64,000 nucleotides of DNA from Hyalella azteca (taxonomy: Eukaryota; Arthropoda; Malacostraca; Amphipoda; Hyalellidae), in NCBI RefSeq assembly GCF_000764305.2, contig NW_025943953.1, positions 58,763 to 122,762 of the forward strand, given 5' to 3'. The notes beneath the pieces were generated by a model. That model ran no database searches. It was not told where the DNA came from and saw only the letters and a program-made list of their open reading frames with translations. This document shows positions 47,851-50,800 of the stretch, piece by piece. The position numbers and the translations under genes were made by a program. Within the stretch, counting starts at the first letter, position 1. Every line of letters begins with the position of its first letter.

Positions 47851-50800
47851 GCAATGATGCCACCCACTAGGCCTACCAACACTGGTAATAAAATGAGCTT
47901 TGCAAGGCTCAAACCCCCAGCTAGTTCCTCATTACACTGCCAATACTGCTGCACAACAGTAGCCTGTGTTGTTTGCCTTAATTTTTGCAAGAGAAAATTA
48001 GGCTAGTGAGTTAGCTAGGCATGGAATGCATCTACTTTTCCCGCCATGCTTAGAGCTTCTACACAATCCTGGTGCCTGGAAATTCCCATCACATGAATTG
48101 TCTCCTATTTAATTTCTAACAAAGTGCGCAACCATGCCACAAGTTTTGTGTGAAATAGGAAATTTCCATTCTTTATCAGAGGCAGGCATGGAATATATTT
48201 ACTTATTGGAAACTTGAGCATTAACAAAGAATAAAGAATAGTTAAATTCAATATCAGTCCAGCTGGAGCAGATCACTTGATGTTCCATAATATCAGCTGA
48301 GTTGTTGAGATAAGATACACTTTCATGTCTTCTTCTCCAATATACCTATGTGCACCGATTTATTTATTTACAAGACATGGATAAAAAGTTTGTTATTTTC
48401 TATCCATGGCTTAGGTCACAATAGTTGAATTAGATATGAGTAGTGTTAATAGCACATCAGTTGAGACAGAACTGATATACCTTACATCTAACTTGCTGCT
48501 TGTCAATAAATATATAATTATTCTGGTCAGATCTTGTGTAGGTTGGATTACCATTTTGTTCGGTAGTATATACCTACTTGTTTTTGGATGATTTTCTTCC
48601 AAAGTTAAAACTTTGAATGCAATAGTGTTGAGAAATGACGTCCTCCCTTTGTTTCAGATCTGCCTATGATACTCAGACTAAAGCGAAAGTGGCAATAAAA
48701 AAAATTTCACCGTTTGAGCACCAGACATACTGCCAAAGAACTCTTCGAGAAATCAAGATACTGACTCGATTTAAACATGAAAACGTAAGTTGCTTCTATA
48801 GGAATTTAAATAATGTTTTAAATAATGTAATATGATGTTGAATTGTATTAACTCAACATTGGCCTTTAATATCCATATTTGAAATCATTTTTGTAGAAAA
48901 ATTTAAATATTCTTCTTTCACCTTGAATTGCAGAATATTTTAGTAAGCTGAAAGCCTGTCATAATTTTTAATCTAGTATTTTTTCTTGATGTAACATTGA
49001 TATTTATTTTATTATTGAAATTCAATTTCATTGTGCAAATTTTTTATTGTGCAGGTAATAGATATTCGAGACATCATACGCTCATGCGATCTCAACTCAA
49101 TGAAGGACGTGTACATTGTTCAGTGTCTCATGGAAACTGATCTATACAAGCTCTTGAAGTCTCAGGTAACAGTATACCCTATATGGCCAGCTGGCCAGTA
49201 AAAGCTTTAAATTCACACCTATTAGTTCTACATGCTGGTCTAAGTTAAGTGAAGGGAACTGGCGTGTCAGCTTAAGGAAATGTAACACAGCAACCCATTG
49301 GTAATTAGGTGGATTAACTATAATGTCTAACTCCTACTATTGAAAATCTGCACTAATATTGGCAGCAATAACTAAATATGAATGAGATGAAATAGATTTA
49401 GCATAGTACTTACCGTATATAGGTAGTGAAAAAGGCTCAACATACAATACAAAGGCACAATATGAAAAAATATTTATGATGCCGCAAACAGTGTATATAT
49501 CCATATTCTACAAAATAATGACAAATTAATGCCAATTCCAACTTAGCCAAATGATGTAGTATCAAATTACAGCAGTTGGTTGCAGTTGTATATATCCATA
49601 TTCTACAAAATAATGACAAATTAATGCCAATTCCAACTTAGCCAAATGATGTAGTATCAAATTACAGCAGTTGGAAAATACATTTTCATTCAAAACTTCA
49701 TTTCAGAAACAACCTTATTGCTTTTAGTGATATTTAAAATTAGCTGACTCATTATTGTATTTTCTCTTGACTTTTCCTCTCACAGAAGCTGAGCAATGAC
49801 CACATCTGCTACTTCCTCTACCAGATATTGCGGGGGCTGAAGTACATTCATTCCGCTAATGTACTCCACAGGGACCTTAAGCCTTCCAATCTCCTCCTGA
49901 ACACCACTTGTGATCTCAAGGTAATTACAATCTCTTGATTTGGTATTTTATTATCTCAATCAACTTTTTCATGTATAATCTGGAACTAGGTACATTTTTA
50001 CTTACTACTTAGTGAATTTCACAAGTTTATGGACTTTTGAGTATTGAATTTGACTTAGAGGTTAATTTCAAATAAAGACAGTATGATTAAATTTTTTTTC
50101 ATGTGTTGGCTAGTAGTTCATGCATTCCTGCATTTTTTGTTCAGATCTGTGACTTTGGACTCGCCCGAGTGGCTGATCCAGAGCACGACCACACAGGCTT
50201 CCTCACAGAGTATGTGGCAACACGCTGGTACCGGGCACCCGAGATCATGCTTAACTCCAAGGTATGCAGGGTCATGCTTAACTCCAAGGTATGCAGGGTC
50301 ATGCTTAACTCCAAGGTATGAAGGGTCATGCTTAACTCCAAGGTATGCTTGATCATGCTTAACTCCAAGGTATGCTCGATCATGCTCAACTCCAAGGTAT
50401 GCTCGATCATGCTCAACTCCAAGGTATGCTCGATCATGCTCAATGCCAAGGTATGCTCGATCATGCTTAACCCCAAGGTATGCTCGATCATGCTCAACTC
50501 CAAGGTATGCTTATCATGCTCAACTCCAAGGTATGCAGGGTCATGTTTAACTCCAAGGTATGCAGGGTCATGTTTAACTGCAAGGTATGCAGGGTCATGT
50601 TTAACTGCAAGGTATGCAGGGTCATGCTCAACTCCAAGGTATGCAGGGTCATGTTTAACTCCAAGGTATGCAGGGTCATGTTTAGCTCCAAGGTATGCAG
50701 GGTCATGTTTAACTGCAAGTTATGCAGGGTCATGTTTAACTCAGAGTTATGTGACATAGTTTAAACTACGGTATCACTTGCGGGCATGTTTGTCTAACAC

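Follow-up and report, generated by a model that had tools for sequence, protein, structure and literature searches.

The ERK gene of the amphipod Hyalella azteca raises the question of why the 5' splice site of its fifth exon stands at the head of a long tandem array of apparently equal donors, and which of them the spliceosome would choose. The array lies in a 64-kb stretch of DNA (64,000 nucleotides, hereafter the window), in which TRF placed it at 50245-50742, with a period of 27, 18.5 copies, 92% matches and a score of 688, the highest among the 37 rows obtained for the window. A preliminary description of the locus had named the donor of a coding exon as the seed of the repeat. Indeed, the array has its start within ERK exon 5, of which it takes in the final 18 nt, and these together with 9 nt from the beginning of intron 5 make up the first unit. 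All 17 plus-strand occurrences of AAGGTATG in the window fall inside it. The earlier count of about 19 tandem copies with 17 intact AAG/GTATG donors was borne out, except that the steps are not uniformly 27 nt, the one between donors 10 and 11 being 26 nt. GT is absent from units 18 and 19, which read AAGTTATG and GAGTTATG. Two unit types arranged in blocks, as previously described, can be recognised by the letters that follow GTATG: CAGG or AAGG in units 1-3 and 11-18, and CTTG, CTCG or CTTA in units 4-10, with unit 19 deviating. The features are collected in Table 1.

Table 1. The ERK array and its surroundings, and exons adjoining donor arrays elsewhere in the genome (positions refer to the window unless a contig is named)
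Feature	Location	Strand	Basis
Minisatellite across the donor; 19 units, all 27 nt long but for one of 26 nt	50244..50757	+	TRF and motif positions
ERK exon 5, 117 nt, ICDFGLARV...; its 3'-terminal 18 nt belong to unit 1	50145..50261	+	exon translation and homologues
ERK intron 5, 1208 nt	50262..51469	+	
ERK exon 6, GYTKSIDIW...CIINDK	51470..51637	+	3' end putative, from the GTATTC that follows
Donor 1 (GT), normal ERK	50262..50263	+	
Donor 2, predicted insert VCRVMLNSK	50289..50290	+	
Donor 3, predicted 18-residue insert	50316..50317	+	
In-frame TGA for predicted transcripts from donors 4-17	50319..50321	+	
Donors 4-17, each CAAG/GTATG	50343..50694	+	
Units 18 and 19, donors destroyed (AAGTTATG, GAGTTATG)	50717..50757	+	motif and U1 duplex energy
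ATP9-like exon and donor array, 14 units, mostly 27 nt	L009 (C4458:147000-156000) ~4605-4219	-	
G3P dehydrogenase exon at donor array			PDB 3da1, E 1.3e-11
BTB/Kelch-like exon at donor array			Pfam 7e-16
Integrator 3 exon at donor array	L042		PDB 4owt, 2.5e-11
RING exon at donor array			best E 4e-6, just under that model's cut-off; above second model's cut-off
Fanconi A N-terminal-like exon at donor array			1.9e-6, just above cut-off

The products computed for the individual donors agree with those expected earlier. Donor 1 gives normal ERK, donors 2 and 3 would add 9 and 18 residues after K201 (a position that matches the residue count over the exon translations), and transcripts from donors 4-17 would meet the stop codon at 50319, within unit 3, with a frame shift in addition from donor 11 onward. 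In a simple U1 duplex model each of donors 1-17 pairs with -5.7 kcal/mol, and units 18 and 19 barely pair (-1.4 and -2.0 kcal/mol). The lack of variation in the donor core across 17 units gave P values of 0.006 (named columns) and 0.04 (longest invariant run), in a test whose end at unit 17 was chosen after the fact. This is a hint of selection on the donor core, suggestive only, because two more units with broken donors exist.

In all of the best 120 of 7983 ERK homologues, PEIMLNS[KR] is followed directly by GY, and none of these sequences, all from other species, contains an insert at the exon 5/6 junction; exon 5 is therefore the ancestral seed of the array. The crustaceans Oratosquilla and Portunus were among the best matches (89% identity), with some insects close behind. 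When the genome of H. azteca was searched at the DNA level with positions 49700-51700, no second copy or allele of the array was found among the best 40 of 1733 candidates scored; of at least 43 matches, one was a full match and represented the window's own sequence, and 42 came from an interspersed repeat of short length that sits in intron 5. That repeat, of about 150 bp at 51188-51357, is 88-97% identical to at least 42 places in the genome. The single copy in the assembly neither proves nor excludes a wrong repeat length. A protein search with the 145-codon open frame of the array gave no match in other species at E 0.001 among 3497 candidates, which is a weak test because databases rarely translate intronic arrays.

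Is the arrangement peculiar to ERK? In the 519-Mb assembly, with its 4890 contigs, two AAGGTATG motifs exactly 27 nt apart occur 30 times, compared with 10 for the motif read backwards, and these 30 pairs comprise 15 in ERK, 9 in contig C4458, 2 in C4531 and 4 lone ones. The array of C4458 begins on the donor of an exon ending in RFLLLFSYIIPI, which matches a phospholipid-transporting ATPase IIA (PDB 9vdk, E 3e-6), and an exon encoding SLRVNLD lies downstream; a second SLRVNLD exon-like copy is present near 3662 of L009. That the ERK and ATP9-like arrays share a period of 27 follows from the search, which asked for 27.

A looser search made use of triples, that is, three AGGTRWG motifs with 10-40 nt between them. 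There are 9817 of them in the whole assembly, compared with 4904 for the motif read backwards; they cluster by array, and no P value is attached to the difference. The first 100 rows amount, by count, to 23 arrays, all on contigs C2-C49; these contigs come from the start of the numbering and are no random draw. The 5' edges of 20 were examined, three arrays having been omitted beforehand (C27:51 kb, complex; C46 and C49:100 kb, 7-mer). Five of the 20 adjoin an exon with homology support (Table 1), a number to be read with the reservation that short exons can escape homology. The view that a coding-exon donor is an unusual seed for a minisatellite thus has to be abandoned for this genome, as the ATP9-like gene and these five arrays show the same arrangement; named precedents exist as well.

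In four of the five cases the homology match reaches within four residues of the donor; the Fanconi-like match stops ten residues before a weak GTGTG donor, and its exact exon end is not settled. The end of the exon is copied exactly over 29 nt in the G3P dehydrogenase gene (G3PDH), 23 in BTB, 13 in Fanconi, 8 in RING and 3 in Integrator 3, where the repeats next to the donor are imperfect. Repeat periods in the five are 31, 32, 17, 24 and 33-34 nt (33- and 34-nt units being mixed in one array), and three of them are not multiples of three. Exon-like frames were seen in two further loci, L048 (no match; 15 nt copied exactly) and L054 (DBB at 8e-4, below the cut-off; 18 nt copied). The array of L045 lies about 220 nt past the donor of an exon, L047 begins inside its array, so that its edge was not judged, and no clear exon was seen at the remaining edges of this sample. 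L042, initially considered to be MED12, is Integrator subunit 3 by homology. The GGTATG array of L013 (C300) was rejected as donor-seeded, as it has no recognisable exon, and one following an LDL-receptor class A-like stretch (L010) was left uncounted, with a Pfam value of 1.6e-4 below the cut-off and N at its edge.

A second sample, of 14 arrays with a stricter motif, yielded no confirmed exon. Six of its edges appeared exon-like by eye (L061, L063, L064, L066, L067 and L073); their best Pfam E was 0.02, and a PDB search with L067 gave no match at E 0.05. Of the others, L062 consists largely of N, the edge of L068 bears an N, and L074 begins within the repeats themselves. Both samples together give 5 confirmed edges of 34. 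If the first sample by itself is scaled up roughly, taking 5 of 20 edges and 23 arrays for every 100 rows of the 9817 triples, some hundreds of such arrays would be expected.

It might be asked whether donors attract minisatellites or are merely hit by them. Triples of the stricter motif CAGGTRAGT number 547, as against 183 reversed, a figure inflated by a recurring 21-bp family. This CAGGTGAGTGGTTAGTGCCCC-like family is a dispersed minisatellite with a strong donor motif, found on C181, C190, C563, C619, C767 and C819. Outside arrays, in 214,683 unmasked bases from the window and 17 other genome stretches, there is no excess of single AGGTRWG motifs (68 compared with 73 reversed); MAGGTRAG occurs 15 times (27 reversed) and CAGGTRAGT once in either direction. 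Minisatellites are abundant in this genome: 83 arrays with a period of at least 10 were counted in 159,991 bp taken from 16 contig starts, where they fill 9.1% of bases, and therefore some arrays must land on donors. We do not claim that donors are preferred seeds, the twofold motif excess making such a preference possible.

Boundary-spanning repeats have been described in other animals. In amphioxus, the mirage minisatellites of Adh3 and of the globins Gb6 and Gb9 are tandem repeats over exon-intron boundaries, unstable in length, with units of 10-72 bp in Adh3; they are said to leave regular splicing undisturbed and have been proposed as a source of introns (PMC3087553). As described there, they resemble the ERK array in spanning a boundary, in keeping AG/GT signals in many units and in affecting several genes of one genome. 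The ERK array likewise crosses a boundary of a coding gene with its splice signal AAGGTATG intact in 17 of 19 units, and in H. azteca the ATP9-like gene and five of the 20 first-sample arrays carry similar structures, none being confirmed among the 14 of the second. The amphioxus repeats differ in belonging to a cephalochordate, in lying at both 5' and 3' boundaries and in having been studied by RT-PCR, whereas in the crustacean donor-side arrays were sought and are known from DNA alone. The VNTR in intron 18 of human ABCA7 has a 25-bp unit and 23.7 copies in the reference (PMC5954066). According to that source, its first GT is the donor of exon 18 and a cryptic donor one unit further on retains one unit, in an isoform amounting to 2 +/- 1%; in ERK, too, the canonical donor is the first of many in the array. 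However, the ABCA7 unit starts at GT and is not a multiple of three, whereas the ERK unit includes 18 exonic nt, and in ABCA7 length polymorphism and a link to disease were measured. In human segmental duplications, internal tandem repeats of about 30 bp at exon-intron boundaries are reported to change splicing (PMC2812944); the likeness is that of a boundary minisatellite, those cases being recently duplicated primate genes for which novel introns were proposed from transcripts. With amphioxus, ABCA7 and UBC (discussed below) as precedents, the ERK array belongs to an already known kind. Among the literature matches listed, no title or abstract opening mentioned a boundary-spanning array in an arthropod. 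Prawn lectins reportedly contain coding repeats of 30 and 33 bp (PMC7536079). As far as these listings go, the arthropod host and the number of affected genes are new.

The ERK array is probably a nearly neutral minisatellite of the mirage type that arose on a donor and leaves the transcript mostly through splicing at donor 1. A short tandem duplication may by chance have taken in the 3' end of exon 5 along with the adjoining 9 nt of intron 5, after which the array would have grown in blocks, by slippage or unequal exchange. Protein constraint would have kept unit 1 exonic, the remaining units being intronic. In the pre-mRNA, donor 1 would then be the main partner of the acceptor at 51469, the array would be removed at little cost, and the extra donors would probably yield minor isoforms, mostly carrying a stop codon. 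In three of the confirmed genes (G3PDH, BTB and Fanconi-like), every use of donor 2 would throw the reading frame off, which points to donor 1 as the usual choice. On the other hand, according to one paper, when two donors are comparable the intron-proximal one is favoured, for a reason not known; such a preference, combined with equal U1 energies, predicts donor 17 and argues against the dominance of donor 1. Hairpin-driven slippage was rejected as a general cause of growth: three ERK units fold no better than mononucleotide shuffles (z 0.34 and 0.57), in contrast to a threefold ATP9-like unit (z -8.4), and hairpins are therefore no general cause. The ATP9-like consensus unit could form a hairpin, TCATACC/GGTATGA, which would hide its donor.

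The array could instead act as a regulatory rheostat, in which U1 binds many donors, those from 4 to 17 feed nonsense-mediated decay (NMD), the number of repeats sets ERK output, and donors 2 and 3 supply variants of the kinase extended by extra residues behind the APE motif. The predicted products, the equal strength of the donors and the reported intron-proximal preference would fit this, and in ABCA7 a longer VNTR is reported to go with lower expression and more skipping of exon 19 (PMC5954066). In the same source, however, unit retention and NMD are unrelated to VNTR length. Like arrays in unrelated genes, with three of five periods not divisible by three, point to a general mutational process rather than a device of ERK; frame preservation, on which the idea of in-frame inserts is based, is therefore no feature of the class, although five cases are few, and such periods speak against selected protein inserts. 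The uninterrupted junction in the 120 homologues is also unfavourable. Tuning of ERK output by copy number is a possible role; we regard the rheostat as unlikely, and a neutral, tolerated minisatellite fits better.

A less probable alternative still, which we rate as quite doubtful, is that CTCCAAG/GTATG acts as both acceptor and donor, so that stepwise removal at AG/GT leaves the mRNA normal or seeds a new intron. AGGT is present in 17 units, but a step of 27 nt is too short for a stand-alone intron. Pyrimidines upstream of the array AGs make up 53-67%, compared with 47-87% at seven ERK acceptors (the exon 4 value being taken two bases off). The model for such a mechanism is human UBC, reported to possess a tandem series of dual-specific AGGT sites that allow many ways of splicing, introns of this type being enriched in tandem-repeat genes (PMC10809524). 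UBC shares with ERK the AGGT in tandem units and a unit that is a multiple of three, whereas its 228-nt coding monomers are kept or removed and its sites are described as serving in both roles, the AGGT of ERK being seen in sequence alone. Least probable of all is a repeat invented or distorted in length by a short-read assembler. In its favour, two other arrays are each bordered by a single N (14144 and 19584, where contigs may have been joined at repeats) and a different contig retains what looks like a mate-pair adapter, signs suggestive of short-read assembly with repeat trouble. The array and its surroundings, however, are free of N, and an assembler would hardly invent the ordered blocks, the 26-nt unit and the decayed distal units.

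We tentatively suggest that minisatellites in this genome start repeatedly, and perhaps preferentially, from 5' splice sites, and that hundreds of its genes may carry arrays of identical donors varying in number and period. If true, this would be a natural experiment on how one donor is chosen by the spliceosome when many are equal, and a lasting source from which new introns and isoforms could arise; it would also extend the mirage minisatellites from amphioxus to an arthropod. Should donor 1 be used despite 16 equal competitors, neither U1 complementarity nor nearness to the acceptor alone would suffice, and position relative to the exon would decide. Should it not always be used, ERK output could hinge on array length, as ABCA7 expression appears to. 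The set of genes would allow either rule of donor choice to be measured from ordinary RNA-seq.

Some other features of the window and the assembly deserve mention. ERK exon 1 and its flanks are present twice, at 40637-42585 and 45902-47850, in copies that share 99.9% identity over 1949 bp and have one N, at 44049, between them; this pair is either a recent duplication or a duplication made in assembly. A palindromic sequence left in the assembly at about 1570-1611 of L013 (C300) is presumably the Nextera mate-pair junction adapter. A 455-codon open frame on the minus strand of the window (10591-11955) has four protein matches, the window's own and two unnamed proteins included, and its one named relative is a hypothetical protein of the amphipod Trinorchestia longiramus, 63% identical.
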